Source: Chloroflexota bacterium
GTDB lineage: Bacteria > Chloroflexota > Anaerolineae > CG2-30-64-16
Assembly (NCBI GenBank): GCA_029555885.1
Contig: JAKPQT010000381.1
Location: forward strand, 1-32,319
Reading direction: 5' to 3'
DNA length: 32,319 nt
Shown here: in pieces, positions 4,345-22,100 of the stretch
How the letters are laid out: each line of letters begins with the position of its first letter
How positions within the stretch are numbered: position 1 is the stretch's first letter
Made by a program: the position numbers and the translations under genes
The notes under the pieces: generated by a model
What the model saw: the letters and a program-made list of their open reading frames with translations, nothing else
Database searches by the model: none
Told to the model about the DNA's origin: nothing

Positions 4345-5787
4345 ATGAAATCCGGACATCTGCGGCGGCTTGTAACATTTTGCCTGCTGGCGTCCGTGCT
4401 GACCGCCTGCATCGCGGCCCCGATGACGCCCGCACCCGCGCCGTCGGCGCCTACGATCGAGCCTGCGCTGCCGGCACAGACAACCGCCGAACCCGCTACC
4501 CCTGTCCCGGCCGAGCCTGAAGCCGAACCCACCGCCAGCAGTCCGGCGGCCGCCCCGGCTGCGGGCAGCCTCGAGGGCACGTTCTGGATCCTGGCGCTCT
4601 ACCCTGACGCGACCGGGCAGATGGTGAGTGTGCTCCCCGATTCGCGCGCCAACATCGAGTTCAGCGGCGGGCAGGTCACGGGCAATGCCACCTGCAATCT
4701 CTATAACGGAACCTACCAACAGGTTGACGACAGCCTGACGATCGCGCTTGCTGCGCGCACCCTGATGGCGTGTGAAGACCCGCTCATGGCGCAGGAAGAT
4801 GCCTACCTGGCCGCCCTGACGCAGGCCGCGAGCCAGCGCACGACGGGTAACAAGCTCGACATCCTGAACACCGAGGGTGCGGTCATCCTTTCATTCATCG
4901 CCGAGGCGACCCCGGTACTGACCGAGGCCGCTCCCGCACCCGCCGAGACCACCGTTGCGTTGACCGGCACAGAGTGGCAGGTGATCGAATATAACAATGG
5001 CCGGGACGGCCTGGTGTCCGTCATGGCGGGCACGACCATCACCGTGACCTTCGGGGCCGATGGGCACATGGGCGGCACGGCCGGCTGCAACGGCTTCGGC
5101 GCGCCCTACACGCTCGACGGCGCCAAGCTGACCATCGACTCGATCTTCTCCACGATGATGTTCTGCACGGAGCCGGAAGGCATCCTCGACCAGGAGGCGG
5201 ACTTCCTGGCTGCGCTGGCGAAGACCGCCGCCTACGCCATCGAAGATGACCGGCTGACGCTGACCGCGGCAGACGCCAGCCCGGTCCTGACCGCAGTTGG
5301 GGCGGCTGCCGAGGCTGCACCGCCGGCCGAAGCGACGGCTGTGCCAGAGGCAGCACCCCCGCCAGCCGCTACAGAAACCGTTGCTGAAGCACCTGCTGAA
5401 GAGGCGCCGGTCGCACCTGCACCGGTGACCGTGCCGACGGACGCGGCGCTGCTCGGCCAGGTCTGGCAGTGGCAGGAAACGACGCTGGCGGACGGCTCGG
5501 TCGTGAAGGTGGGCGCACCGCAGCGCTACACCGTACAGTTCATGGACGACGGCATCGTGATCGGCCGGGCCGACTGCAACCGCGCCGGGGGCATCTATAG
5601 CGTCGCAGACGGGGCCCTCAAACTCAAGGTCGGTGTGCTTACCCGCGCGGCGTGCCCACCCGGCTCGCTCTCGACGCAGTTCGTCCAGGCGCTGAACAGC
5701 GCGGCAACCTACCGGTTCGACGGCGACAACCTGGTCATAGAGCTGCGCGATGGCGCAGGCGTCATGCTCCTGATCGGCGCGAAGTAA
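4345..5787 (+). CDS. Lipoprotein with three META (HslJ-like) domains
   Basis: This 480-residue secreted lipoprotein begins with a positively charged start, a hydrophobic stretch and the lipobox LTAC at C22. A Pro/Ala/Thr/Glu-rich linker follows, to about residue 75. Three META-type domains come next, at roughly 76-183, 205-318 and 368-478. Each opens with a Trp-containing strand (GTFWIL, GTEWQV, GQVWQW) and has a conserved Cys-Asn in GNATCNLYNG, GTAGCNGFG or GRADCNRAG. A second Cys follows about 30 residues later in each, so each may hold a disulfide. META domains occur in HslJ and in extracytoplasmic proteins, and their molecular role is poorly defined. The ATG at 4345 (or GTG at 4342) follows a strong GAGGAGG site. 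A TTG further upstream would overlap that site. It is probably surface-anchored. Confidence 0.9.
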   Translation: MKSGHLRRLVTFCLLASVLTACIAAPMTPAPAPSAPTIEPALPAQTTAEPATPVPAEPEAEPTASSPAAAPAAGSLEGTFWILALYPDATGQMVSVLPDSRANIEFSGGQVTGNATCNLYNGTYQQVDDSLTIALAARTLMACEDPLMAQEDAYLAALTQAASQRTTGNKLDILNTEGAVILSFIAEATPVLTEAAPAPAETTVALTGTEWQVIEYNNGRDGLVSVMAGTTITVTFGADGHMGGTAGCNGFGAPYTLDGAKLTIDSIFSTMMFCTEPEGILDQEADFLAALAKTAAYAIEDDRLTLTAADASPVLTAVGAAAEAAPPAEATAVPEAAPPPAATETVAEAPAEEAPVAPAPVTVPTDAALLGQVWQWQETTLADGSVVKVGAPQRYTVQFMDDGIVIGRADCNRAGGIYSVADGALKLKVGVLTRAACPPGSLSTQFVQALNSAATYRFDGDNLVIELRDGAGVMLLIGAK

Positions 5788-6032: not shown

Positions 6033-7217
6033 TCACTCGCCCCACCACGTCTCCCCCGCCGCGAGCAGCGGGATCACCACATCCCTGTTCAGCCGCAGGC
6101 CCAGGCCCGGCGCGTCTGGCACGGTGAGATGCCCCTCTCGCACCAATGGCTTGCCGTCACATTCGACCAGGTCCTCGAACCACGGCCACGTATAGCCTGC
6201 GCGCTCCATCATGCGGAAGTCGCGCATCGTCATGGCCGCGTGCGCGCTCGCGACGATGCCCACGATGCTCGACGCGTTGTGTGCGCAGGTCGGGATATAG
6301 TGCAGCTCGGCCAGGTCCGCGATGCGCTTGGATTCGAGCAGCCCGCCCGCCTTGGGGATGTCGATGTGCGCGATGTGCAGCCCGCCCGCCTCGATGAAGG
6401 GCCGGTACTCGTGGCGGGTGTAGAGGTTCTCGCCGGTGCAGATGGGCACCTCGGACGCGCGCGCCAGCTCGACCCACGCGGGTGAGAACTGCGGCGGCAG
6501 CGGGTCCTCCAGCCAGATGGGATGGTATGGCGCGATGCGCCGCGCCAGCGTGAGGGCGTCCGGCAAGTCCAGCGCCCAGTGACAGTGGACCGCGATATCG
6601 AAGTCCTCGCCGAGCGCACGGCGCAGATTTTGCAGCGCCCGCTCTGTGCGTGCGAGGTCCTGCATTGTGAGGTGGCGGCTCATGCGCTCGTGCCCGACCT
6701 CCCGGTAGTCCGGGTCATAGCGCGCGCCGAGGCTCTCCACATCCACCGTCTTGACCGCAGTCCAGCCCTCCGCCTTGACTTCATCCGCCCACGCCTGCAC
6801 AGAGTCGGCGTCGAGGATGTCTGCGGGCATTCCCGTCCGGTACAGCCGCACGCGCTCGCGGAACTGGCCACCCAGCAGCCGGTAGACCGGCAGCCCGGCG
6901 AGCTTGCCGGCCAGGTCCCACAGCGCAATCTCGATGCCGCTCATGGCCGTGACGACCAGCCCGCTGAGCGCGTTGCCGCCCGCCCACTGGTGGCCCATCT
7001 TCGTGTAGAGCCGGTCCACGTCGCGCGGGTCCTGGCCGACGAGCAGCGGCTTGAGGTAGTGGTCGATGACCGGGCGCAACCCCCAGCCCCAGTACGCTTC
7101 GCCCAGGCCCCACACGCCCAGGTTCGTGTCCACGCGCACGAGGTTCCACGGCGGAATGTCGGGCCGGTGCAGGGTTATAACGCGGATATCGGTGATGACA
7201 GGAGATGCCTTCGGCAT
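6033..7217 (-). CDS. Enolase-superfamily (mandelate racemase type) sugar-acid dehydratase
   Basis: This 394-residue cytoplasmic protein has the capping domain (residues 1-130) and barrel domain of the mandelate racemase branch of the enolase superfamily, closest in style to galactonate/mannonate dehydratases. Visible active-site landmarks are K156 in AVKTVDV, the metal glutamates E237 (WLEDPLPP) and E263 (TGENLY), D286 (HIDIPKAGG) and the catalytic-base candidate H313 (CAHN), which pairs with D286. The first metal ligand, normally Asp at the end of the third barrel strand, reads His: AVHCHW has H211 where D is expected, followed by H213. The codon is CAC. The ATG at 7217 has an AGAGGTGA ribosome-binding site. 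The gene stands alone and diverges from glnA. The nearby pectin genes make an aldonate or uronate substrate plausible, but the exact substrate cannot be read from sequence. Confidence 0.87.
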   Translation of the reverse strand: MPKASPVITDIRVITLHRPDIPPWNLVRVDTNLGVWGLGEAYWGWGLRPVIDHYLKPLLVGQDPRDVDRLYTKMGHQWAGGNALSGLVVTAMSGIEIALWDLAGKLAGLPVYRLLGGQFRERVRLYRTGMPADILDADSVQAWADEVKAEGWTAVKTVDVESLGARYDPDYREVGHERMSRHLTMQDLARTERALQNLRRALGEDFDIAVHCHWALDLPDALTLARRIAPYHPIWLEDPLPPQFSPAWVELARASEVPICTGENLYTRHEYRPFIEAGGLHIAHIDIPKAGGLLESKRIADLAELHYIPTCAHNASSIVGIVASAHAAMTMRDFRMMERAGYTWPWFEDLVECDGKPLVREGHLTVPDAPGLGLRLNRDVVIPLLAAGETWWGE

Positions 7218-7261
7218 GGGTCACCTCTTGGAGTCAGTCTTGGACAGCGAAATACCGCTGC

Positions 7262-7267
7262 ATCATA
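7262..7267 (-). promoter_or_regulatory. Possible -10 box of the enolase-superfamily gene
   Basis: TATGAT on the minus strand lies about 45 bases before the ATG at 7217. No good -35 is visible; that position is occupied by the palindrome at 7280-7301. Binding there could therefore also affect this leftward gene. Confidence 0.35.
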
Positions 7268-7279
7268 ACACACCCTCAA

Positions 7280-7301
7280 ATACTACCCATTCGGGTACTA
7301 T
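7280..7301. promoter_or_regulatory. Palindromic activator site upstream of glnA (nitrogen box 1)
   Basis: ATACTACCC-ATTC-GGGTACTAT is an inverted repeat with eight of nine paired positions matching and its centre at 7290.5. The core TACCC-N4-GGGTA recurs upstream of amt at 9945-9958, and both copies share ACCCA and CGGGTACTA. The distance from the first T of TACCC to the -10 hexamer is 39 bases at both genes. This matches an upstream activator site (centre near -44). The half-site and spacer layout resembles CRP/FNR-family operators, but the regulator is unknown. Confidence 0.7.
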
Positions 7302-7322
7302 ACACCTCCGGCGTGTGCCGGA

Positions 7323-7328
7323 TATACT
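7323..7328 (+). promoter_or_regulatory. -10 box of glnA
   Basis: TATACT matches five of six consensus bases. The -35 position holds a poor TATACA-like sequence, which fits an activator-dependent promoter. The transcript would start near 7335, giving a leader of about 87 nt. That leader contains two direct copies of CAATTCGTAA. Confidence 0.55.
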
Positions 7329-7421
7329 CTCAACGGTTCGTTGGGGCGACCGGTTCGCACGGCAACCCGCAATTCGTAATTCTCGATTCCCAATTCGTAA
7401 CTCAACCGAAAGGGCTTTTCC

Positions 7422-8837
7422 ATGTCCAAGACAGTCGCTGACGTGATGGAAATGGCGAAACAAGTGCAGATGGTCGACCTGCGCTTTACCGACCTGCCCG
7501 GCGTCTGGCAGCATTTCACGATTCCTGCGCATGTCCTCTCCGAAGACACCTTCGAGGATGGCGTGCCGTTCGACGGCTCGTCCATCCGTGGCTTCAAGGA
7601 GATCCACGAATCGGATATGCTCCTGCTGCTGGACCCGACGACTGCGTTCATCGACCCGATCTACCAGGTGCCGACGCTCGTCATCATCGGGGACGTCTAC
7701 GACCCCATCACCCGCGAGCCGTACAGCCGTGACCCGCGCTACATCGCGCGCCGCGCCGAGACCTATCTGAAGCAGACCGGCATCGGGGACACGGTGTTCT
7801 TCGGGCCGGAAGCTGAGTTCTTCATCTTCGGGGACGTGCGTTACGCCAGCAACACCAACGAGGCATATTATCACATCGACAGCCGCGAGGGCTGGTGGAA
7901 CAGCGGCAAGGACATCGGCCCCAACTTCGGCGGGCAGATTGCGGCCAAGCGCGGCTACTTCCCCACCCCGCCGGTGGACACGCTCCAGGATGTGCGCAGC
8001 CGGATCGTGCTCGCCATCGAGAGCGCGGGCATCCCGGTGGAGATCCATCATCACGAAGTCGCGTCCGGCGGGCAGGGCGAAATCGGGATGCGCTTCGACA
8101 CGCTGCTGCGCATGGCCGACAACGTGATGGTCTACAAGTACATGGTCAAGAACGTCGCCCGGCAGAACGGCCTGACCGCCACCTTCATGCCCAAGCCGCT
8201 CTACGGCGACAACGGCAGCGGGATGCACTGCCATCAGAGCATCTGGAAGGGCGGCAAGAACGCGTTCTACGACGAGACGGGCTATGCGCAGCTCTCCGAC
8301 ACGGCGAAGTACTACATCGGCGGCCTGTTGAAGCACGCGCCGGCGCTGCTGGCGCTGGTTGCGCCGACGACCAACTCGTACCGCCGGCTCGTGCCCGGCT
8401 TCGAGGCGCCCGTCAATCTGGCCTATTCGCAGCGCAACCGGTCGGCCATCTGCCGCATCCCGGTCGGGTCCAAGAGCGCCAAGTCGAAGCGTGTCGAGTT
8501 CCGCGCGCCGGACCCGTCGTGCAACCCCTATCTGGCCTTCGCCGCGCTGCTGATGGCCGGGCTGGACGGCATCCAGAACCGCATCGACCCGGGCGAGCCG
8601 ATGGACAAAGACCTGTACGGCCTGCCGCCGGAGGAAGCCAAGCTCATCAAGCAGGTGCCGGGCTCGCTCGACGCGGTGCTGAAGGCGCTCGAAGATGACC
8701 ACGAGTTCCTGCTCAAGGGCGACGTGTTCACGACGGACATGCTCAAGACGTACATCGCCTACAAGCGCGAGACCGAGGTCGACCCGATTCGGATGCGCCC
8801 GCACCCGCACGAGTTTACGCTGTATTTCGACGCATAG
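7422..8837 (+). CDS. glnA: Glutamine synthetase type I
   Basis: This 471-residue protein has the standard length of dodecameric type I glutamine synthetase, which makes glutamine from glutamate, ammonia and ATP in the cytoplasm. The N-terminal beta-grasp domain includes FDGSSIRGF (50-58). The catalytic domain carries metal ligands E130 and E132 (GPEAEFF), E212 and E220 ([11 protein letters not shown]), H269 (GSGMHCH) and E359 (RVEFRAPD). The adenylylation loop is present as [10 protein letters not shown] with Y399, so this looks like the GSI-beta subtype that is switched off by adenylylation; no adenylyltransferase gene is in the window. It has its own promoter with the TACCC-N4-GGGTA site and ends in a strong intrinsic terminator. 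Linkage to amt and glnB, and the site shared with amt, place it in a nitrogen regulon. Confidence 0.97.
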
Positions 8838-8864
8838 ACCCGATAGGGAAACCCGATCTCCATC

Positions 8865-8919
8865 ACAAATCCGGTTTCTTGGCGAAGCTGCGCTTCGCCA
8901 AGAAACCGGATTTGTTTTG
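8865..8919 (+). terminator. Strong intrinsic terminator of glnA
   Basis: A 23-bp perfect stem pairs 8865-8887 with 8893-8915 around a five-base loop (CTGCG). The right arm runs into a T-rich TTTGTTTT stretch. The arms contain AAATCCGGTTTCTTGGCG, an unusually long stem that may also be a repeat element. Confidence 0.85.
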
Positions 8920-8956
8920 GCTCGGTTTCTGATGTCCCTGATTGTGGGCTGATTTG

Positions 8957-8985
8957 CTGACAGAAGTCCCGTTTGCGAGTAAAAT
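8957..8985 (+). promoter_or_regulatory. Promoter of hslO
   Basis: CTGACA (8957-8962) and TAAAAT (8980-8985) are exactly 17 bases apart, each with five of six consensus matches. The transcript would start near 8992, about 28 nt before the ATG at 9020. Confidence 0.7.
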
Positions 8986-9019
8986 GCGCCGGAGGATCAG
9001 TCGAAGACGGGAGATGGAT

Positions 9020-9901
9020 ATGAGTGATTATATTCTGCGCGTGATGGCGAAGGACGCCGGGGTGCGCGCATTGGCATGCGTGACGACGGAGCTGGCGCAG
9101 GAGGCCGCGCGGCGCCATGCCGCCTACCCGATTGCGGCGGCCGCACTCGCGCATGGCCTCACGGCCGGCGTGTTATTGGGCGCGCTGCTCAAGGTGCAGG
9201 AGCGCATTGCGCTCAAGGTCGAGGGCGGCGGCCGGCTGCGTAAGCTGGTCGTGGAGGCGGATGCGTATGGCCGGGTGCGCGGCTATGTGGCCGTGCCCGA
9301 TGCCGCGTCGGGTGACGACCTGGGCGCAGAGGCGGTCGGTGAGGCGCTGGGCCACGAGGGCATCCTGACCGTCGTGAAGGACATGCGGCTCAAGGACCTC
9401 TACCGCAGCGTCGTCCTGCTCGATACCGGGCAGCTCGCGCCGGAGCTGGAGAACTACCTCAACACCTCCGAGCAAGTTCCGTCGCTGGTCAGGATCGGCG
9501 TACGCATGGATGAGGGCGGCGCCATCGAAGCGGCCGGCGGGCTGCTCATTCAAGCCCTGCCCGGCCGCGGCCGCGCAGCCGTCGAGCAGCTCGCCGTCAG
9601 CCTGGCCGACCTGCCGCCGCTGGAGACGCTGCTGGCGGATGACTTCGGCCCGCACGAACTGATGGATCGCATCTTCGGCCCGGTGCAGTACGAGGTCCTG
9701 GAGGAACGGCCCGTCCAGTTCCACTGCACGTGCAGTTGGGAGCGGTCGCGGCAGGCGCTCAAGATGCTCGATCCCGAAGACCTGCTCGCGCTGCTGGCCG
9801 AGGGCGAAGCGACAGTGGACTGCCACTTCTGCCACGAGCGCTATCACTTCAGCGCCGAAGACCTCGAAGGCATCCTGCGCGAGCGGGAGGCGGTCGAATG
9901 A
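9020..9901 (+). CDS. hslO: Hsp33 redox-regulated chaperone
   Basis: This 293-residue cytoplasmic holdase is activated by oxidative unfolding. The C-terminal zinc/redox switch is complete: C236-T-C238 and C268-HF-C271, with 29 residues between the pairs, as in the family. The N-terminal domain carries the expected AYPIAAAALAHGLTAG and VEGGGRLRKLVVEADAYGRV segments. The ATG at 9020 is chosen over the one at 9014 because the GGGAG site at 9009-9013 is then six bases away. It has its own promoter and an intrinsic terminator, so it is a single-gene unit between glnA and amt rather than part of a nitrogen operon. Confidence 0.96.
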   Translation: MSDYILRVMAKDAGVRALACVTTELAQEAARRHAAYPIAAAALAHGLTAGVLLGALLKVQERIALKVEGGGRLRKLVVEADAYGRVRGYVAVPDAASGDDLGAEAVGEALGHEGILTVVKDMRLKDLYRSVVLLDTGQLAPELENYLNTSEQVPSLVRIGVRMDEGGAIEAAGGLLIQALPGRGRAAVEQLAVSLADLPPLETLLADDFGPHELMDRIFGPVQYEVLEERPVQFHCTCSWERSRQALKMLDPEDLLALLAEGEATVDCHFCHERYHFSAEDLEGILREREAVE

Positions 9902-9909
9902 CAGCGTTG

Positions 9910-9943
9910 TAGGACGGGTTGACAACCCGTCCTACTGATTTTT
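9910..9943 (+). terminator. Intrinsic terminator of hslO
   Basis: TAGGACGGGTT (9910-9920) and AACCCGTCCTA (9924-9934) form an 11-bp stem with a GAC loop. A run of five T follows at 9939-9943. The same stem recurs at 11290-11314 between amt and glnB. The T-run directly abuts the amt palindrome. Confidence 0.85.
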
Positions 9944-9959
9944 GTACCCAAACGGGTAC
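9944..9959. promoter_or_regulatory. Palindromic activator site upstream of amt (nitrogen box 2)
   Basis: GTACCC-AAAC-GGGTAC is a perfect 6-bp inverted repeat centred at 9951.5. The core matches the site upstream of glnA, and the 39-base distance from the first T of TACCC to the -10 box is identical. The GTA-N10-TAC outline recalls cyanobacterial NtcA boxes (GTA-N8-TAC) but has a different spacer, so NtcA itself is not implied. Confidence 0.72.
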
Positions 9960-9980
9960 TAGCCAACCCCCATCCCGCTC

Positions 9981-9989
9981 TGCTATCCT
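9981..9989 (+). promoter_or_regulatory. Extended -10 promoter of amt-glnB
   Basis: TGC-TATCCT is an extended -10 with four of six hexamer matches. The -35 position (AGCCAA at 9961) is poor, as expected for an activator-dependent promoter. The predicted start near 9996 gives a leader of about 61 nt. Confidence 0.6.
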
Positions 9990-10056
9990 GCCGCATGTGA
10001 CTGGCGGGCCGCGCCCGAACGGCGCACCGCAGCACATGCACGAAAGGAGCAGACCG

Positions 10057-11280
10057 ATGGATAGCATCAATGCGGGCGACACCGCCTGGATCCTCGTCGC
10101 CACGGGGCTGGTGACGCTCATGACCCCGGCGCTGGCCTTCTTCTACGGCGGCATGGTGCGCCGGAAGAACGTTCTCTCCACCCTCAACCTCAGCTTCGTG
10201 ATGATGGGCCTGATCGGCCTGCAGTGGGTCCTGGTCGGCTACACGCTCGCCTTTGGGACCTCCCTCGGCGGGATCATCGGCGGGCTCAACTTTGCCGGGC
10301 TGACGGGTGTCGGTGCGGAGCCGAACGCCGAGTACGCCGGGACCATCCCGCACATGGCCTTTGCCGCCTTCCAGATGACCTTTGCGGTCATCACCCCGGC
10401 GCTCATCACCGGCGCGTTCGTCGAGCGCGTCCGCTTCAAGGCCTTCCTGCTGTTCAGCCTGCTCTGGGCGACCTTCGTCTATGACCCGGTCGCGCACTGG
10501 GTCTGGGGCGTCGGCGGGCTGCTGCGCCAGCTCGGCGCGCTGGACTTCGCAGGCGGGACCGTCGTGCACATCACCGCAGGCTTCTCGGCGCTGGCCTTTG
10601 CGCTGGTCATCCGCAAGCGCGCGGGCTACGGCAACGGGACCATGGAGCCGCACAACATCCCGTACAGCATCCTCGGCGCGGGGCTGCTGTGGTTCGGCTG
10701 GTTCGGCTTCAACGGCGGCAGCGCGCTGGCTGCCAACGGCCTGGCGGTCACCGCCGTGGTGAACACAAACACGGCCGCGGCGGCCGCAGGACTCGTCTGG
10801 ATGTTGCTGAGCTGGCGCGACCATAAGCCGAGCATCCTCGGCATCGTCACCGGCGCGGTCGTCGGGCTGGTCGCGATTACACCCGCCGCCGGGTTCGTCA
10901 CCCCGCTTGCGTCGATCGTCATCGGCGGGCTGGCGGCCCCCATCAGCTACTACGCCATCAAGTTCCGCCAGAAGCGCCACCTCGACGAGTCGCTCGACGT
11001 CTGGGCGTGTCACGGCATGGGCGGCGCGTGGGGTGCGATTGCGACCGGCATCTTCGCCACGAAGACCATCAACTCCGCCGGTGCGGACGGCCTGCTCTAC
11101 GGCAATCCCGGCCAACTGGCCGTGCAACTCCTGACCGTCGTGGCCGTCGCCGCCTTCGCCTTCGCACTCACGACCGTCATCACCCGGCTGCTCAACCGCA
11201 CGGTCGGCTTGAGCGTCACGCCGACCGAGGAGCAGGTCGGCCTGGATATCAGCGAGCACGGCGAGCGCGCGTACGCATAA
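10057..11280 (+). CDS. amt: Ammonium transporter (Amt/AmtB family)
   Basis: This 407-residue inner-membrane protein has the eleven-helix Amt fold. It lacks a cleaved signal peptide and starts near the first helix (AGDTAWILVATGLV). Pore residues align with AmtB: F105 and F218 (phenylalanine gate), W150 and S222 (recruitment site), D163, and the twin histidines H171 and H319 (CHGMGGAWG). The C-terminal tail GLDISEHGERAY is the segment that contacts PII proteins, and glnB follows directly. The ATG at 10057 has an AAAGGAG site seven bases upstream; longer in-frame starts would run back through the promoter. It is expressed from the extended -10 promoter with the shared nitrogen palindrome. Transport is probably blocked by GlnB under nitrogen excess (family knowledge). 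Confidence 0.97.
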   Translation: MDSINAGDTAWILVATGLVTLMTPALAFFYGGMVRRKNVLSTLNLSFVMMGLIGLQWVLVGYTLAFGTSLGGIIGGLNFAGLTGVGAEPNAEYAGTIPHMAFAAFQMTFAVITPALITGAFVERVRFKAFLLFSLLWATFVYDPVAHWVWGVGGLLRQLGALDFAGGTVVHITAGFSALAFALVIRKRAGYGNGTMEPHNIPYSILGAGLLWFGWFGFNGGSALAANGLAVTAVVNTNTAAAAAGLVWMLLSWRDHKPSILGIVTGAVVGLVAITPAAGFVTPLASIVIGGLAAPISYYAIKFRQKRHLDESLDVWACHGMGGAWGAIATGIFATKTINSAGADGLLYGNPGQLAVQLLTVVAVAAFAFALTTVITRLLNRTVGLSVTPTEEQVGLDISEHGERAYA

Positions 11281-11338: not shown

Positions 11339-11728
11339 ATGACCAAGAAAATCGAAGCCATCATCCGGGAAGAAAAGCTGAACGATGTGAAGGACGCGCT
11401 GCGCCGTATCGGCATCGTGGGTATGAACGTGACGGAGTGCCGGGGGCACGGGCGGCAGGGCGGCATCACGCTCACCGGGCGCTCCGGCAGCTACCAGGTG
11501 GACCTGCTGCCCCGGCTGCAAGTGAATATCGTGCTGAGCGACCACAACGTCCCCAAGGCCATCGAGACCATCTGCGAGGCCGCAGCGACCGGCGACATCG
11601 GCGACGGGCTCATCTTCGTCTACCCGGTAGACGATGTCATCCGCATCCGCACCGGGGAGCGGGGGCAGCAGGCGCTGCAATACCCCGACGACATCGACGA
11701 GCGGCGCAAGGTCACAGAGGTGCATTGA
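11339..11728 (+). CDS. glnB: PII nitrogen regulatory protein
   Basis: This 129-residue trimeric PII protein senses 2-oxoglutarate and ATP/ADP and controls AmtB and other nitrogen targets. The T-loop (GHGRQGGITLTGRSGSYQVD) has Y52 at the position of the modified Y51 of E. coli GlnB. The C-terminal signature TGDIGDGLIFVYPVDDVIRIR is intact. The protein is slightly longer than the usual 112 residues because of a C-terminal extension (YPDDIDERRKVTEVH). It lies 58 bases after amt, separated by a palindrome, and shares the amt promoter. A GGGGGAGAA ribosome-binding site precedes the ATG. Gene order amt-glnB corresponds to the widespread amtB-glnK pairing, so glnK would be an equally good name. Confidence 0.95.
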   Translation: MTKKIEAIIREEKLNDVKDALRRIGIVGMNVTECRGHGRQGGITLTGRSGSYQVDLLPRLQVNIVLSDHNVPKAIETICEAAATGDIGDGLIFVYPVDDVIRIRTGERGQQALQYPDDIDERRKVTEVH

Positions 11729-11755: not shown

Positions 11756-13750
11756 ATGACCGTGACGCCTGACGAAGACGACCGCCTGTTGGCAGTCCTG
11801 GCGCAACTGCGCGACGTGGGCCGGCGGGTCAACCAGCTCAACCTGGGCGACCCGGCCGTCCTCGACGCGACGCTGCGCCTCATCGCAGAGAGCGCGGTCA
11901 CCATCATCCCGGGCGCCACCGCCATCCTGTACACCTACGACCCCGCCCGCGGCAGCCTGGACCCCATCTCGCGCACCTCGGCAGGCGACCATCCAGCCCT
12001 GCTCCGCGACGCGACGCCCCGGCCCGACGGCCTGGGGATGCGCGCCATCCGCCGCACGCAGCCCGTGCTCTCATACGATGAGCCGGACCTCGACATCCAT
12101 CCCGACCGCCGGTCTGCCGGGGCATCCGCCGCAGCCTGCCTGCCGCTGCTCGTAGCGGGCCAGCCGCTCGGCGCCCTTTATGTCTATCTGGCAGAAGCGC
12201 GGCGGCTGAGCCAGCTCGAATTGCTCCTGCTGGACAACTTCGTTGCGCAGGCGGCGATGGCCCTCTACCTTGCCGGGCAGGTCACCCACACGCGGCGCAA
12301 CCTCGCGCGCAAGGAGGATGAACTGGCCCTGCTGCGCCATGCGGGCCTGCTGATCTCCTCGCGCACCCGGCTCGAGGACACGCTCGTTGCTATCCTCGAG
12401 ATGGCGCTGGAGGTCACCGGCGCGCGCTACGGCATCTTCCGGCTCGTGGACCGCAGCGGCCAGAACCTCGTCATGCGGGCTATTGCAGGCGAACGGCTGG
12501 GCCGGCCTGCGGTCGAGGCGCTGCCCATCAACACGACGAGCATCATGGGGCTCGTGGCCAAGACGCGCCAGCCCGTCAACATCGCGGACGTGCGCGAGCC
12601 GCCCTGGTCGCGCATCTATTACCCGCTGGACCACTCGCTCCAGATGCGCGCGGAGCTGGCCGTGCCGCTCATCGGCGCGGGCGGTCGGCTGGAAGGCGTG
12701 CTGAACCTCGAAAGCCCCCACGCCGGCGCGTTCAGCGAGGCGGACAGTCACCTGCTGCAGGGACTCGCGACCCAGGCCGTCATTGCCATCCAGGAAGTGC
12801 GCCTGCTCGACGCGCTGCGCGACACTTCCACGCGCGTGCTGACACAGGACCTCGCGGAGGTGCAGGCACACCTCGCCGCGCTGCGCAGCGACCTGGTGAG
12901 CGGCGACACGGAGTGGGACCGCAAGGTCGAGGCCATCCTGGCCGAGTATGAGGCCCTTGCGCGTGCGAACGCGGCGCGGCAGGAGGCGCTGCGCGAGGCG
13001 CAGGAGGCCCGCGCAGTCGCAGAGACGTTCGCTGCGATGGGCGACGTGGCCGCCAACCTGCTCCACCACCTCAACAACAAGGTCGGCACCATCCCGGTCC
13101 GCATCGAGGGCATCCAGGACAAGTGCGCGCCCGCGCTGGCAGAGAATCCTTATCTGGCAGCCAACCTGGCGGAGATCGAGCGGGCCGCGCTGGATGCGAT
13201 GGCAACCGTGCGCGACCGGCTGGCCCTGCTCCACCCCATCGAGGCCGGGCCGGTCAGCGTGGCAGACTGCGTGGCCGATGCGCTGGCCGCGGCGCGGCTG
13301 CCGCCCGGCGTGGCGGTGCAGTCGGCCGGGCTGGCACAACTACCGCCCGTGCTCGCGGGCCGGGAGACGCTGGCCCTGGTCATCGTCAATCTGCTGGACA
13401 ACGCGGCGGAAGCCATGAACGGTCGGGGCGTCGTGCAGATTGGGGGGACCGCAGCGGAAGACTGGGTCGAGCTGGCAATTACCGATGACGGGCCGGGCAT
13501 CCCGCCGGACAACCAGGCGCGCATCTTCGAATTCCGGTTCTCGGAGCGGCGGCGGGCCGACGGTCGGCTGGGCGCCGAAGGTGCCCGGAGCGCACGCTCG
13601 CGGCTGGGGTTCGGGCTGTGGTGGGTCAAGACGATGATGACTCGGCTCGGCGGCGCGGTCTCGGTCGAGAGCGACGGGCACCGCGGTACGACGTTCCGCC
13701 TGCGCCTGCCGCAGGCTGCACGGCAGGCGGATGGGGAGGCGGCCTCTTGA
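11756..13750 (+). CDS. GAF-domain sensor histidine kinase
   Basis: This 664-residue cytoplasmic kinase has no membrane segments. Two GAF-type sensory domains lie at about 30-175 and 200-350, followed by a coiled coil at 355-425. The dimerisation/phosphoacceptor helix contains [10 protein letters not shown] (H437, with H438 where Glu is usual), and the ATPase domain spans about 530-655. ATP-site boxes are clear: NLLDNAAEA (N), DDGPGIP (G1), FEFRFSE (F) and LGFGLWWVK (G2). The HxLNN form resembles NtrB-like and other HisKA kinases with an Asn-Asn pair. The ligand of the GAF domains is not predictable. The gene follows glnB by 27 bases and overlaps the response regulator gene by four, so the pair are partners. 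Its position suggests a nitrogen signal (inference). Confidence 0.92.
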
Positions 13751-14826
13751 CGTCTGTTACACCGCGCGCACTGGTGGTGGAAGACAGCCCCGCCTGGCAG
13801 GAGATTCTGACCGAGCTGCTGACCGACATGGGGTTGGCCGTGGATGTGGCTGCGGACCTGGACGCCGCGGTCGCGCACCTGCGCGTTGCGCCGCACCGGG
13901 TCGCCGTGGTGGACCTCTCGCTGCGGCCCGATGACGAGGGCGATCGGGACGGGCTGCGGGTACTGGAGGCCGTCCGCCGCCAGGACCCCAACTGCGTCGC
14001 GCTGCTGCTGACCGGCTACGCGACGGTCGAGATTGCCGTCAGCGTGTTGACCGGCTACGGCGCCTACACCTGCCTGCGGAAGGAGGCCTTCCGCCGTGCA
14101 GAGTTCCGCCAGGTCATCCGGGAGATGCTGGCGCAGGCCCCGGTTGCTGCGCCCCCCGCTGTCCAGCGCGAGGCTGCCGCGACGAGAGAGGCCACCACGC
14201 CGCCGAGGCCCATCCCTGCATCCGCGCCCGCTCCGGCCATGCACCCTGGCAAGGCCTTGCTGGTCGAAGATGATGCGGGCTGGCGCGCGATCCTGGCGGA
14301 GCTGCTGGCGGATGCCGGCTATTCCGTCCACGCGTGCCTCAGCTATGGCGAAGCGCTCGGCCACCTGCGGCGGGAGAAACATAGCCTCGTTGTCGCAGAC
14401 CTGTCCCTCGCGAGCTCGCTGGCCGCAGGGGCCAACCGTGATGGCTTCGAGGTCTTGCGCGAGGCGAAGGCGACGGGCATCCCGGCCATCGTCGTGAGCG
14501 GACTCGCGACCCCCGCCGACCTGGAGCGGCTCTACAGCGAGTTCGCGGTCTACGCGTGCCTGGAAAAGCAGCGCTTCGAACGCAGCGGCTTTGTCGCCGC
14601 CGTAAAGGAAGCGACCTCCGCCGGCCGCGCGGGCCGCGGCGAAGTCGCCCGGCTGACCCGCCGCGAGCGCGAGGTGCTGGACCTGCTGGTGCAGGGCCTC
14701 ACCAACAAGGGCATCGCCCGCGCGATGGTCATCTCGGAGAACACCGTCAAGCGTTATCTCAAGGCCATCTTCGAGAAGCTCGACGTGGACAGCCGTGCGG
14801 CGGCGGTCGCTAAGGTGCTGAGATAG
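13747..14826 (+). CDS. Response regulator, two receiver domains plus LuxR-type HTH
   Basis: This 359-residue regulator has REC1 (about 7-128; D56 in VVDLSL, T89, K112), a Pro/Ala linker, REC2 (168-288; D218 in VADLSL, S251, K274) and a LuxR/NarL helix-turn-helix at 302-359 ([20 protein letters not shown], then [10 protein letters not shown]). Both receivers retain the phosphorylatable Asp. The start is a TTG at 13747 that overlaps the kinase stop (TTGA), with GGGGAGG seven bases upstream, so translation is coupled. An upstream in-frame GTG at 13618 would extend far into the kinase gene and lacks this site. Two receivers for one kinase suggest integration of two phosphate donors. DNA targets are unknown; the glnA/amt palindrome is one candidate. 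Confidence 0.92.
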
Positions 14827-15214: not shown

Positions 15215-16183
15215 ATGTTCGATAAAATCCTGGTTCCCCTGGATCGCTCCGCGCTTGCGGAGTGTGTGCTGCCGCATGCGGTGGCACTGGCTCAGGCCTT
15301 CAATGCCGAGTTGATCCTGTTCCACGTCCTGTCAAGCTCGGATGAACCCGACCGACTCCGCGCGGTGGACCCGCTGGAATGGCAGTTGCGCCGAGCCGAA
15401 GCGGAAAGCTATCTGCAGGGCGTGTGCAAGCGCCTGCGCGCATCCGGCGTCGTCTGTGAGGCGCAGGTCAGCGCGGGCGACCCCGCCGAACTGATCGTCA
15501 GCTTCGCGGACGAGCAGGGCCTCAGGCTGATTCTCCTGGCCAGCCACGGCCAGAGTGGCCAGAGCGGCTGGAACGTCAGCAGCGTCGTGCAGAAAGTGGT
15601 CATGCGCAGCCGATCCTCGCTTATGATCGTGCGCGCGCATGCCGCCCCGGTTCCTGAAGGCGAAGCCCTCCAGTACAAACGCATCCTCGTGCCGCTCGAC
15701 GGCTCGGCCCGGGCCGAATCCGTGCTGCCGCTGGCCAACGTCCTGGCCCGCCTCCCGGAGACCCTGGTGCTCGCCGCCCACGTGGTCCAACGACCTGTGA
15801 TGCCCCGCCGCACGCCGCCGAGCCAGGAAGACACCGAACTGGCAGACCGCATCGTCGAGCGGAATCGCGTCGAGGCCGAGAACTATCTCGAATGGGTGCG
15901 CTTGCAGTTGCCTCCGGCCACGGTTGAGACGCGCCTCCTCGTGGCACACCAGGTGGCCAGCACACTCCACGCATTGGTCGAGCAGGAACGCGCAGACCTG
16001 GTGCTGCTCAGCGCGCATGGCCTCTCCGGTGAAACGCGTTGGTCCCACGGCAGTCTGGTTGCCAGCTTCCTGGCCTACGGCTCGTGTCCCTTGTTGATTT
16101 TCCAGGATGCGCCCGATGAACAGTCCATCCTGACGCAGGCGGAAGTCATCGTACGCAACATTGAAAGTCGCCAAGCCGTATGA
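15215..16183 (+). CDS. Universal stress protein, tandem UspA domains
   Basis: This 322-residue cytoplasmic protein has two UspA folds: about 1-145 (MFDKILVPLDRSALAECVLP) and 155-310 (YKRILVPLDGSARAESVLP). The second keeps a nucleotide-loop pattern G-x2-G-x6-G-S (GLSGETRWSHGS), typical of ATP-binding members. The first has GQSGQSGWNVSS, lacking the canonical Gly-Ser, so ATP binding there is doubtful. A strong GAGGAGG site precedes the ATG. The stop overlaps the start of the next gene (ATGA), so it is translationally coupled to a 2905-residue glucan synthase-like protein. This suggests stress- or osmotic-linked control of glucan production (inference). Confidence 0.93.
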   Translation: MFDKILVPLDRSALAECVLPHAVALAQAFNAELILFHVLSSSDEPDRLRAVDPLEWQLRRAEAESYLQGVCKRLRASGVVCEAQVSAGDPAELIVSFADEQGLRLILLASHGQSGQSGWNVSSVVQKVVMRSRSSLMIVRAHAAPVPEGEALQYKRILVPLDGSARAESVLPLANVLARLPETLVLAAHVVQRPVMPRRTPPSQEDTELADRIVERNRVEAENYLEWVRLQLPPATVETRLLVAHQVASTLHALVEQERADLVLLSAHGLSGETRWSHGSLVASFLAYGSCPLLIFQDAPDEQSILTQAEVIVRNIESRQAV

Positions 16184-19100
16184 GCGAGGAAAGACATGAC
16201 ACCGGACCGGGGATCACTCCCGGCTTAGCAGACACACAAGCCTTTGCCTACCTGGCCGCGGCTGAGGGCAGGGCCGAGCCCGGCCGCGGCCGCGAACCCT
16301 GGCTGCTGGAGAGCATCGCGGACCGGGAAACCTTCCTGGCCGCAACGGTCGCCTACCTGCGCGATGGACAGGGCGAACAGACGCTCTCGCACGCAGCCGA
16401 GTGGATGCTGGATAACCTGCACCTGGCACAGCAAGCCCTGCGCCAGGTACGCGAGGACATGCCCCGCAGCTACTACGGGCAGTTGCCCAAGCTGGTGGAC
16501 GGTCCGCTGCGCGGTTACCCGCGCATCTACGACATCGCGCAGCGGCTGGTGATGCAGAGCGATGCGCGGCTCGACATGGAGCGCGTGCGCCGCTTTGTCG
16601 CCCTCTACCAGGAATCTCAGCCGCTGACCATCGGCGAAATATGGGCCTTGCCGGTCATGCTCCGCTGGGGCGTCCTCTCCGTCCTGACGCGCGCGGCCGG
16701 CGATGTGACCGGGCGGGCCCTGGCTGAGGCAGAGATGCGCGCCTCGCGCGGCCCTGCAGCGCCTCCGCTCCTCCATACGCTCGCGGACGACGAGGTCGTA
16801 GGCAACTGCTTCACCAGCCTGCGCACCATGGCCAACTTCGACTGGCGCGACTTCTTCGAAAGCGTCAGCCAGGTGGAACAGATCCTCCGCACCGATCCCG
16901 CTGATGTCTACCGCCATATGGACCGCGCCACCCGGGATCGCTATCGCGGGCACGTCGAAGAGCTCGCGCTAGCGAGCGGGCAGAGCGAGCGAGATGTCGC
17001 GGCGGCCGCAATCGAGCTGGCAGAGCGCGCCGGCGCTGACCTGGCATACGCGCCGGCCACGCGGGCAGCCGATGGAGCTGCGGCGGAAGACGCGGCCTGG
17101 ACGGGCTTCGCTGCACCCCCCGCGGCGCACGTGGGTTACTACCTGGCCGACGAAGGCCGCGCCGAGCTGGAACGCCGCGTCGCCGCGCGCTTTTCGGCCG
17201 GCAGCCGGCTCATGCGCGCCATACTCGCGCATCCCGCCCGCGTCTATATGGGCTCCACCGCGTTTTTGACCGCGTTCCTGGTGCTCGGCGCGGCGCTGTA
17301 CGCCGCGACACAGGGGGGCTCTCCGTGGCTGGTCTTGCTGGCGGTCGGCGTCACATTCATGCCGGCCCTTGCGGCAGCCATCGCGACGGTCGACTGGATT
17401 ATCACCCTGATCGTTCCGCCTCGCACCCTGCCCAAACTCGACCTGGCCGAGCAGTCCGGCGCGGCGGCCATTCCTGATGCGCTGCGCAGCCTGGTGGTCG
17501 TGCCCGCGCTGATCGGGGATGCGGAGGATGTGGCCTCGCTGCTGCGCCAGATCGAACAGCACTACCTGCGCAACCCCGACGCCAACCTGTATTTCGCGCT
17601 GCTGACCGACTTCGTCGATGCCGACGAGCAACATCTGCCGGGCGACGAAGCACTCCTGGAGCAGCAGCGTGCGGGCATCGCGCAGCTGAACGAACGCTAT
17701 GCGGCGCTCTCCGGCGCCGCCGAGGGCCCGTTCTGCATGTTTCACCGCGAGCGCCGCTGGAACCCCAAGGAGGGCCGGTGGATTGGCTGGGAGCGGAAGC
17801 GCGGCAAGCTGCACGAGTTGAACCGCTGGCTGCGCGGCGCGACGGATACGTCCATCGTCTCCTATATCGGCCCGGCCGCCGCGCTACGCGAGGTGAGGTA
17901 CGTCATCACCCTGGACGCCGATACCATCCTGGGCCGCGACGGCGCGCGTGCGCTCATCGCAACCCTGGCCCATCCGCTCAACCGCGCCGCGGCCGATCCC
18001 GAGACGGGCCGGGTGCGCCGCGGGTATGGGCTGCTCCAACCCCGCACCGAGATTGTCCCGGCCAGCGCCAACTACTCGCACTTCAGCCGCATCTTCGCGG
18101 GCGATATCGGCCTGGACCTGTACACCAATGCCGTCTCCAACGTCTATCAGGATTTGTTCGGCAGCGGCATCTATGTGGGCAAGGGCATCTACGACATCGA
18201 TGCCTTCGAGCGCAGCCTGGACGGCCGCGCGCCGGAGAACACCCTGCTCAGCCATGACCTGTTCGAGGGGATCCACGCCCGCGTCGGGCTGGTCACCGAT
18301 ATCGTGGTGTATGAGGAATATCCGGCCACTTACCTGGCGCACGTGCGCCGCCTGCACCGCTGGACCCGCGGCGACTGGCAGCTCCTGCCGTGGCTGCTGC
18401 CGCGCCTGCTGAAGCCCGCCGGGCTGCCGGAGGTCCGGGCCGACTTCGACCGGATCGACACCTGGAAACTGCTCGACAACCTGCGGCGCAGCCTGCTCGC
18501 GCCTGCCCTCCTGCTGATGCTCCTGGCCGGTTGGCTCTTCCTGCCCGGCGCAGCCCTGGTGTGGACGGTCGCCGCGGTCGGCGCGCTCGCCGTGCCGCCG
18601 CTGACCGGCGCGCTGACGCCCATCGTGCGCGGCCGCGGTCCGCTCGCCTGGCGGCAGGCGGCCCGCTCGCTGTGGCCGGGGCTCCGCCGCTGGCTGCTCG
18701 CCGTCGCCTTCCTGCCGTTCGAAGCCGCGCAGATGCTCGACGCCATCGGCGCCAGCCTGGTGCGCGTGCTGCTCACCCGGCGGCGGCTGCTGGAATGGGT
18801 GACGGCTGCACAGTCGGCCCAGATGGTGGCCGCCAGCCGCCTGCCCACCTGGCGGACGATGCTGGCCGCGCCGCTGGCGGCCGCCGCCTCAGCGGTCGTC
18901 TTAGTGCTGCTGCGGCCCGGCAGCCTGCCCGCAGCCCTGCTCCTGCTGCTCTTGTGGGCCATCGCCCCCGAGATCGCCTTTCGCATCAGCCAGCCCGTCC
19001 GGCGCGAACATGCACCGCTCACCGCAACCCAGCGCACCGCGCTGCACAGCCTGGCCCGGCGCACCTGGCTGTTTTTCGAGGATTTCGTCGGACCGGAGGA

Positions 19101-22100
19101 CCACTGGCTGCCCCCGGACCACTACCAGGAAGCGCCGCTCGGCAAAGTCGCGTCCTATACATCGCCCACCAATATCGGCCTGCTCCTGCTCTCCACGCTC
19201 GCCGCGTACGACCTGGGCTATATTGGGGCCATCAACCTCATTTCCCGGCTGCGCGCGACCTTCGAGAGCCTCGCGCGGTTGGAACGCTTTCGCGGCCACT
19301 TCCTGAACTGGTATGACACGCGCAGCCTCGCTCCGCTGGCGCCGGCTTACGTATCTACTGTGGACAGCGGCAACCTGGCCGCCTGCCTGCGGATCCTCGG
19401 CCGTGCCTGCGAGCAGGTGCGCGCGGCACCGGTGCTGCGGTGGGCCCGCTGGGAGGGCATGGCAGACACTTTCAGCCTGCTCGATGATTTCCTGGCTGAC
19501 CTCGCAACCGCGCAGAATATCTCCGGCGCCCGCGACCTGCGGACGCTGCTCGGCGAACTGCGCGACCGCGTGCTGGACGCCGAAGCCGAGCCGGCGAAGT
19601 GGCGCCCGACACTCGACTACGTTGCCGGCGAGGGTTGGCAGCGTCTGGAAACCCTGCTCACGCAGCTCATTGCGGAGAACGCGCCGGTCATCGGCACGGC
19701 GGCCTTGGGCATGCTGCGCATCGCGGTCGGACGCATCAAGAACCAGATATCCACCTTCCACCGTACGGTTGACCTGCTCCTGCCGGGTCTCGCCTGGCTG
19801 AGGGAGCGGCCGGCCCTGCTCCAGGCGGCGGAACTGCCGGACTCGCTGAGGGCCGCGTATGACGAACTGGCGGAGAGCCTCCAGAGCATCCCCCCGTTCG
19901 CGGAGTATCCGGCAGCCATTGCTGCGATGCAGGCGGCAGTCGACCGGCTCCTCGATGCAGTGGCCCAACTGCCTGCGGACCGGTACGATGCGCACCAGGT
20001 GGCCGACGTACATAGCTGGTGTGACGCGCTGTGTGAGAAACTCGCGGCAGCCCGGACGATGGGCGAGGAACTCCTGGCTGGCCTCACCGACATCGAGACG
20101 CAGGCCGAACAGTACTTCCGGGAGATGGACTTTGCCTTCCTGTTCGACCGCCAGCGCGAGGTCTTCCACATCGGCTACAACGTGCCCGCGGGCAAGCTGG
20201 ACCAGAACTATTACGACCTGCTCGCATCCGAGGCCCGCATCGCCAGCCTGGTGGCCCTCGCCAAGCGCGAGGTGCCCCGCAGCCATTGGATGCACCTGGC
20301 CCGGCCGCTCACCCAGGTCAACGGCGCCCGTGCGCTGCTGTCCTGGAGCGCCACCATGTTCGAGTACCTGATGCCCTCGCTGTTCATGCGCTCCTATGCC
20401 GGGACCCTGCTGCACGAGAGCGCGACCGCCGCCGTGGATCACCAGATTGCCTACGGCCGGCGCCGGGGACAGCCCTGGGGCATCTCCGAGTCGGGCTTCT
20501 ACGCGCTGGACGGCAACAACAACTACCGGTATCGCGCGTTCGGCGTGCCCGGGCTGGGCTACAAGCGCGACCTGGCCGAGGACGCCGTCGTCGCACCGTA
20601 CGCTTCGCTGCTGGCCTTGCCGTTCCGCCCGGCCGAGGTCGTGGACAACGTGGCACACCTGGCGCGGCTGGGCGGCCTTGGCATCTACGGGCTCTATGAG
20701 GCGCTGGATTTCACGGCCAGCCGCCTGCCGCTCGGCCGTGACCACGCAGTCGTGCGCGAGTACATGGCGCATCACCAGGGCATGATCCTCCTGGCGCTGA
20801 ACAACTATCTCTACGAGCTGCGCACAGGCGAGGAAGCGCCCATGCTGCAGCGTTTCCACGCCGACCCGCTCCTGCAGAGCGTGGACCTCCTGCTGCAGGA
20901 GCGCGTGCCGACGGACGCGCCGCTCGAGTTCCTGCAGCCCGGCGACGCTGCGCCGGCCCGCAGGTCAGTTGCGCCGGTGGTCTCCGCGCCCTGGCCGGTC
21001 CACGTGCACGCGCCCATGCCCGCTGTCCACAGCCTGTCGAACGGAACCTACAGCGTGTTGATATCCGCAGCCGGCGCCGGCCAAAGCCGCTGGGGCGACA
21101 TCGCGCTGACCCGCTGGCAGCCCGATGCCACGCGCGATAACTGGGGCACGTGGCTCTACGTGCAGGACCGTGCGAGCGGGCGGCTGTGGTCCGCCACGCA
21201 TCAGCCGGCGGGCGTGGCGCCAGCGGCGAGCGAAGTGCGTTTCTATCCGCATAAGGCGGAATTCCAGCGCACCGACGACCAGATTGCGCTGACGCTGGAG
21301 GTCGCGGTGGCCCCGGATGACGATGTCGAAATCCGCCGCGTCACGCTGCACAACCAGGACGAGCAGGCCCGGCGGCTGGCGCTCACAAGCTACGCCGAAG
21401 TGGTCATGACCGACCCGGCGACAGACCAACGTCACCCGGCCTTCAGCAAGCTGTTCGTCGAGAGCGAATATCAGTCCGAAACGGGCGCGCTCCTGTTCAG
21501 GCGGCGCCCACGCGCCGCGAGCGATGCACCGGTCTTCATGGCTCATTTCGTGCTCAGCGAGGGCGCCGACACCGCGCGGGCGACCGGCTATGAGAGCGAC
21601 CGGGCCGCGTTCCTCGGCCGTGGAACGGCGGGCGTGGCCGCGCCGGCCGCGCTGGCCGGCTCACAGGATACAGGTCCCGGCGGCCAGTTGCGCGGCTCGG
21701 TCGGCGCCACGCTGGACCCCATCATGGCGTTGCAGTATGAGGTCGAACTGCCGGGCGGCGCCACGATCCAGCTCGCGTTCATCACCGCTGCGGCCCCCGC
21801 CCGTGAGGCGCTGCAGGCGATCATCGAGCGCTACCGGGCCTGGCCCTCGGTCGAGCACGCCATCGGTCAGTCGCGCGCGCGCGCCGAACTCGAGCTGCGC
21901 CAGTCCGCACTGTCATCCGCCGATCTCGAGCGCTTCCAGACGCTGCTGTCCGCGCTGCTCTACGGGCACCACGGGCTCCGGGCCGAGCCGGAGGTCCTGC
22001 AGGCTAACACACGGGGCCAGCCTGACCTGTGGGCCTACGGCATCTCGGGCGACTATCCGCTGCTCCTCGTGCGCATCGCAGAGGAAGAAGCGCTGGGGTT

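Follow-up and report, generated by a model that had tools for sequence, protein, structure and literature searches.

A 14-bp palindrome, TACCC-N4-GGGTA, recurs across Anaerolineae in front of genes of ammonium uptake and assimilation, and is predicted from its letters and placement to be a conserved operator. Its binder is most likely, as judged from domains and linkage, a linked response regulator of REC-REC-LuxR type, which the first-pass annotation of this DNA did not name. At a probability of roughly 0.7, the box would serve Anaerolineae as the operator in two-component control of nitrogen genes: a linked kinase would phosphorylate the linked regulator, whose dimer would bind the box and activate glnA and amt-PII. 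The box is conserved in relatives at a fixed promoter geometry, genes of the kinase and the regulator are linked to its targets, box and regulator co-occur, and the recognition helix is changed where the box is missing.

Box and promoters in the window

The window is the whole stretch of DNA that was analyzed, 32,319 nt of a Chloroflexota bacterium. Its features are collected in Table 1. The two copies of the palindrome, at glnA and amt, were confirmed by direct sequence reading where the first-pass annotation had placed them, and no other perfect copy occurs in the 32 kb. Each is followed directly on its 3′ side by CTA. With a weight matrix (see below), the glnA box scores 41.1 and the amt box 15.0. 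When up to two mismatches are allowed, 7 matches are found in the window against 5.86 expected, so the relaxed pattern carries no meaning in a single window. Two boxes in the window alone are a weak claim, and it is the relatives that decide.

Table 1 Features of the window around glnA and amt
Feature	Position	Strand	Basis
Operator box TACCC-N4-GGGTA upstream of glnA, TACCCATTCGGGTA (predicted)	7284..7297	+	Sequence; conserved in relatives
Weak -35-like TATACA adjoining the glnA box (TAGAC in relatives)	7299..7304	+	Sequence; alignment of 36 sites
glnA -10 hexamer TATACT; predicted start near 7335	7323..7328	+	Sequence; fixed offset in relatives
glnA, type I glutamine synthetase, 471 aa	7422..8837	+	NCBIfam TIGR00653 above cut-off
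hslO (Hsp33 chaperone), between glnA and amt; start codon uncertain	8942..9901	+	NCBIfam NF001033 above cut-off
Hairpin TAGGACGGGTT-N3-AACCCGTCCTA then CTGATTTTTG; possible hslO terminator just before the amt promoter	9910..9934	+	Read from sequence
Operator box upstream of amt, TACCCAAACGGGTA (predicted)	9945..9958	+	Sequence; box in 8/8 close amt orthologs
Weak -35-like TAGCCA of amt	9960..9965	+	Sequence, by position against the alignment of relatives
amt -10 hexamer TATCCT; predicted start near 9996	9984..9989	+	Sequence
amt, ammonium transporter, 407 aa	10057..11280	+	NCBIfam TIGR00836 above cut-off
PII-family protein	11339..11728	+	Pfam PF00543
Histidine kinase, GAF-GAF-HATPase	11756..13750	+	Pfam
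Response regulator REC-REC-LuxR/GerE HTH, proposed binder; start uncertain, open frame from 13618	13756..14826	+	Pfam PF00072 (two stretches), PF00196

Among the best 80 of 572 matches, the glnA of the window is closest to Anaerolineae/Chloroflexi records, with 91% identity to L001 and 92% over 385 residues to the incomplete L028. A long perfect hairpin followed by GTTTTG, possibly a terminator, lies 3′ of glnA at 8867-8913; three plant-miRNA Rfam matches on this hairpin were far under the gathering score, and an RNA element was rejected. Downstream of the cluster, an open reading frame of 2905 aa extends over 16180-24897.

Conservation of the box and its targets

Conservation was examined at the glnA loci of the same best 80 of 572 matches, 76 of which have at least 200 bp upstream. 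The box was searched within 300 bp upstream of glnA, either exactly or in the relaxed form [TG]ACCC[AG][AT][AT][CT]GGGT[AC]. The exact form was found at 18/76 loci and the relaxed form at 22/76; the remaining 777,632 bases of these loci contain 6 exact and 4 relaxed sites. The enrichment upstream of glnA over the rest of these loci is about 100-fold (exact) and 190-fold (relaxed). The earlier claim that box and geometry exceed chance is thus upheld by a conservation far over chance. The box is conserved in relatives at both glnA and amt, yet in L028, the relative with the most similar glnA, the box has two mismatches and a matrix score of just 0.9; a search of L028 for the regulator found none.

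The promoter was resolved by aligning 36 sites, 34 from relatives and two from the window, with L035 misplaced and L028 poor. An A-rich stretch at -5 to -2 is followed by [TG]ACCC, ATTT or GTTT, GGGTA, a TAGAC-like element at offsets 15-19, and TATAAT from offset 38. No offset from 20 to 37 exceeds 0.3 bit, in contrast to the conserved box, TAGAC and TATAAT; that the flanks have drifted and the elements have not is a sign of selection. Among 48 sites (the two of the window included), TANNNT starts at offset 38 in 34, 39 in 12, 40 in 6, and 37 in 4; one site may count twice in this tally, and counts at the remaining offsets between 22 and 65 range from 0 to 5. The distance of 39 bases from the first T of the box to the first T of the -10, noted in the first-pass annotation, therefore holds for both window promoters, but relatives usually have 38. 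Its description of the -35 elements as poor likewise fits the weak hexamers of the window, TATACA and TAGCCA, both followed by 18-bp spacers, although a -35 does exist, relatives showing TAGAC with a usual -35 to -10 spacing of 17 bp. The box is centred at about -43.5 in relatives and about -44.5 in the window, and a single base pair separates it from the -35 position. In abutting a poor -35 and keeping a constant spacing to the -10, it has the placement of a class II activator site.

A weight matrix trained on 32 glnA sites was applied to glnA, amt, and gltB loci. Scores of at least 20 were obtained upstream of glnA in 47/75 loci. In 2,903 random 300-bp windows of the glnA loci, the 99th percentile was 9.3, and the two highest scores, 23.3 and 25.2, are those of amt boxes within the same loci. 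Close amt orthologs (72-83% identity) have the box in 8/8 cases with scores of 22-35, two amt relatives near 50% identity have none by matrix scoring, and a second amt type (near 40% identity) has it in 4/7 with scores of 18-29, one at only 18.0. Only 5/25 gltB loci have the box, and gltB was rejected as a general target.

Several further sites were observed. The amt of L134 has three tandem boxes (4624-4750), 63 and 44 bases apart, a possible cooperative array. Box-like sites precede genes of ArsB/MamN-like permeases (L029:2610-3985, L011:2607, L145:4554-6038, L142:6950, L136, L138:9155-10456, and L122), called with NCBIfam models below cut-off on three (L029, L145, and L138) and judged from translations in the rest. 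In L029, L011, L145, and L142, this permease, possibly a nitrogen-linked transporter, is followed by an amt of the second type that has a site of its own. Another box-like site, L138:10828-10841, lies between the permease gene and a glnE-like gene (a fragment, matched by models below cut-off), faces glnE, and has a good -10. Besides this glnE site, single cases were seen at the kinase gene (L098), an amino-acid permease (L127), and CPA2 antiporters (L015, and L113 with only 14.8).

Per genome and strand, 0-5 copies of the strict 14-mer were counted. In 32 genomes, many of which were chosen for their glnA box, KACCCRWWYGGGTA gave 91 strand hits against 47 of the backwards control. In the held-out set (next section), the strict 14-mer gave 36 strand hits against 61 of the control in the 25 genomes whose regulator match was strong, 2 hits in the 9 with a weaker match, and 28 in the 34 without the regulator. 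Genome-wide, the strict 14-mer is thus not over-represented in held-out genomes that bear the regulator, which indicates a small target set, and the wide nitrogen regulon suggested earlier was rejected by this count. Because the strict pattern separates genomes poorly, upstream scoring was used instead. The boxes among the sites examined belong chiefly to glnA, amt, a permease gene, and some of the gltB genes.

Linked kinase and response regulator

In the window, the kinase and regulator genes follow amt-PII. Matches to both lie downstream of glnA on the same strand in 28/80 loci, and in L002 they stand behind glnA-hslO-amt-PII as in the window, the regulator being cut by the locus end. By its two PF00072 stretches and PF00196 (Pfam), the regulator falls in the NarL/FixJ family. 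The best PDB match of its HTH is NarL 1je8 (E 5e-10), with GerE 1fse practically tied (5.4e-10), and FixJ, DosR, and VraR are matched too. The phosphorylatable Asp and the switch Lys are kept in both receivers in 47/47 aligned rows with letters there, two further rows being gapped. Receiver 1 resembles NtrX, below cut-off. As for the kinase, HATPase_c is present, no HisKA was called by Pfam at E 0.001, and the candidate phosphorylated His in LLHHLNNK is conserved in 70/70 aligned matches from partly redundant loci.

Co-occurrence was counted in 75 genomes, with a regulator threshold of E 1e-25 and a matrix score of at least 20 at glnA taken as a box. At this threshold, the regulator was found in 43/50 and 7/25 genomes, once in each save fragments, and two of the 7 are partial. 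Both were present in 43 genomes, neither in 21, the regulator only in 7, and the box only in 4 (Fisher p 4e-9), a co-occurrence that is inflated by both training loci and kinship. The regulator-only genomes are L007, where an exact-arm box scores 17.6, L043, L060 with a partial match, and four Thermoflexus. The box-only genomes are L001, L013, L016, and L050, and the contigs of L001 and L013 end before the expected gene. Without the 32 training loci, the box was present in 14/21 genomes with the regulator vs 1/22 without. On the glnA tree with a box threshold of 15, 1-3 of 7 independent pairs change together, none change in opposite directions, and the rest show no box difference; this kinship-aware test of co-loss points in the right direction and is not significant.

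A held-out test was made in the class of G019, where 298 genomes were sampled and, with six candidates per genome scored, 65 matched the regulator at E 1e-40. The set comprised 34 genomes with a regulator match and 34 without, and glnA was found at E 1e-120 in 39/68. Before upstream sequence was fetched, the matches were divided by E value, 25 at 1e-84 or better (strong) and 9 at 1e-82 or worse (weaker). Forty stretches were obtained, 37 upstream of main glnA matches, two of second glnA matches, and one other site. Left out of the 25 strong were three genomes without glnA (G333, G244, and G253), two without upstream sequence (G173, probably the same genome as L002, and G103), and two with <100 bp (G308 and G316). 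With a strong match, the box was present at 13/18 glnA genes with scores of 27-44; the genomes without it are G131, G174, G093, G169, and G124, and G131 and G093 have a perfect box elsewhere. With a weaker match, it was present at 0/9 (upstream sequence of about 135 bp in G183 and 245 bp in G164). In the absence of the regulator, it was found at none of 9 glnA genes from 8 genomes; most of these genes are more distant, at 46-74% identity. The second glnA of G327 likewise has no box.

The recognition helix varies with the box. In the first alignment, 46 regulators were readable, and the helix of 40 starts with NTVKR[HY] (KR). The source genomes of 39 of these, counting the window, have a box at glnA; the KR exception without one is L043. 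The regulator of L049 reads NTVKH, and its box is GGCCC-N4-GGGCC. NT[VI]KK (KK) is found without a glnA box in the partial match of L060 and in the four Thermoflexus regulators. Of 20 held-out regulators read, 10 are KR, 6 of them with a box and 4 without (G131, G093, G169, and G124), and 10 are KK, none with a box (G132, G156, G192, G104, G164, G115, G083, G096, G183, and G174). The helix was read in only 6/13 held-out box-bearing genomes. In total, 14 KK regulators (4 and 10 in the two alignments) have no box at glnA. We take the residues at this position to be ones that contact DNA in NarL.

Another palindrome, TTGTGC-N5-GCACAA, was observed about 200-265 bp upstream of glnA in L067, L068, L076, L077, L052, and L055, which have no TACCC box there. 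It occurs once in each of these six genomes, its letters matching those at glnA, and the backwards control gave 0; a search of two further genomes found none. It was also seen in L288, L289, L291, L293, and L294 (exact), and in L295, L297, and L298 (one mismatch). Because some carriers lack the regulator (L052 and L055, exact; G102 and G099, one mismatch), and L056 has a one-mismatch copy beside a good TACCC box, it is at most a candidate site of KK-type regulators. We hold at somewhat less than even odds a broader scheme, in which Anaerolineae would have their own NarL-type two-component nitrogen control and 14-bp operator in place of NtrC, GlnR, or NtcA, and the specificity would have changed from KR to KK with loss of the TACCC box, glnA often having TTGTGC-N5-GCACAA.

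Proposed mechanism and comparison with known systems

The scheme that follows is inferred in its binding and phosphorylation steps, in its signal, and in its choice of activation over repression. The GAF-GAF kinase would sense nitrogen status via its GAF domains or PII and phosphorylate the linked regulator. The regulator dimer would bind the 14-bp palindrome, centred about -43.5 to -44.5 beside the poor -35, and recruit polymerase with a sigma-70-type -10 to glnA and amt-PII, with kinase and regulator behind. Activation would probably occur under nitrogen shortage. The single activator near -44 that the first-pass annotation supposed is consistent with the box centre and the fixed distance to the -10, while the activation itself is presumed.

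The box could be a true nitrogen operator bound by some other, unlinked transcription factor, the kinase-regulator pair being merely co-inherited. This is rather improbable, although four genomes have a box and no detected regulator, five have a KR-type regulator and no glnA box, and the kinship test is not significant; the linkage of the pair in 28/80 loci, the NarL-like HTH, and the helix change where the box is missing argue against it, as does the half-site TACCC, whose letters resemble the NarL heptamer TACYYMT. The main rival for the direction of control is repression by the linked regulator from the same place, which we regard as slightly less probable still. With its edge at offset 13 and the -35 at 15-20, the bound box would block polymerase in high nitrogen. 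A poor -35 and a centre at -43.5/-44.5, the usual place of a class II activator, speak for activation instead. According to PMC7419079, a single inverted repeat immediately 5′ of the -35 is enough for NarL alone to activate yeaR. In the same paper, an ogt derivative in E. coli with a single improved NarL site at -44.5 has promoter activity that needs NarL or NarP, which speaks against repression, and that is uncoupled from nitrate, a point in favour of repression.

A CRP/FNR/NtcA-type operator with another spacer, the likeness hinted at earlier, is very unlikely. NtcA promoters likewise have a palindrome near -41 to -44 plus a -10 box; however, the box reads TAC-N8-GTA, the reverse of the NtcA box GTA-N8-TAC, and both its half-site and the LuxR/NarL-type regulator linked to it suggest the NarL/FixJ family instead. 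A chance origin of the palindromes, or a hairpin in transcribed RNA, would account for a relaxed pattern as frequent in the window as by chance, and deserves the least credence of all. Chance is excluded by the alignment, the locus-control counts, the matrix scores, and the held-out test; the elements are conserved while the spacer drifts, the box lies upstream of the predicted start, and no Rfam family comes near its gathering score in 7150-10100.

The linked regulator shares with NarL (NarX/NarL of E. coli) a LuxR/FixJ-type HTH, and its proposed operator is likewise an inverted repeat next to the -35. The NarL operator consists of two 7-base elements with a 2-bp spacer (7-2-7) according to PMC7419079, whereas the box is 14 bp long, its half-sites being 2 bp closer (N4 vs N6). 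Two receiver domains, a GAF kinase, and sites at glnA and amt rather than at nitrate respiration genes further set the present system apart from NarX/NarL. NreBC of Staphylococcus belongs to the FixJ family, and its site is TAGGG-N4-CCCTA. PMC8139620 and PMC5694512 describe its response regulator as acting on a GC-rich palindrome at nitrate/nitrite genes. NreBC differs by oxygen and nitrate sensing, an iron-sulphur kinase, and other operator letters.

NtrBC and NtrYX are likewise two-component controls of nitrogen genes. The linked regulator is not an NtrC-type AAA+ activator of sigma-54, as it has no AAA+ or Fis domain (Pfam), and the promoter has, at constant spacing from the box, a -10 of sigma-70 type. 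Actinobacteria (GlnR), bacilli (GlnR/TnrA), and cyanobacteria (NtcA) also have regulators dedicated to glnA and amt. Their DNA-binding domains are of OmpR type in actinobacterial GlnR, MerR type in GlnR/TnrA of bacilli, and CRP type in NtcA, in contrast to the GerE domain here (Pfam). The operator letters of GlnR, TnrA, and NtcA also differ from the box, in agreement with the earlier view that it is unlike known nitrogen boxes.

Among the best-ranked literature matches (open-access full text only), we found no report of this operator or of the control of nitrogen assimilation in Anaerolineae. What is known is the NarL/FixJ family of the regulator, by its domains; what is new is the predicted operator, 2 bp shorter than 7-2-7. 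Anaerolineae are common in sediments, sludge, and the subsurface. The outcome for them is a candidate regulator, a likely operator with its promoter geometry, and a specificity change that is testable in vitro, and the box offers a way of marking nitrogen promoters in many uncultured genomes.
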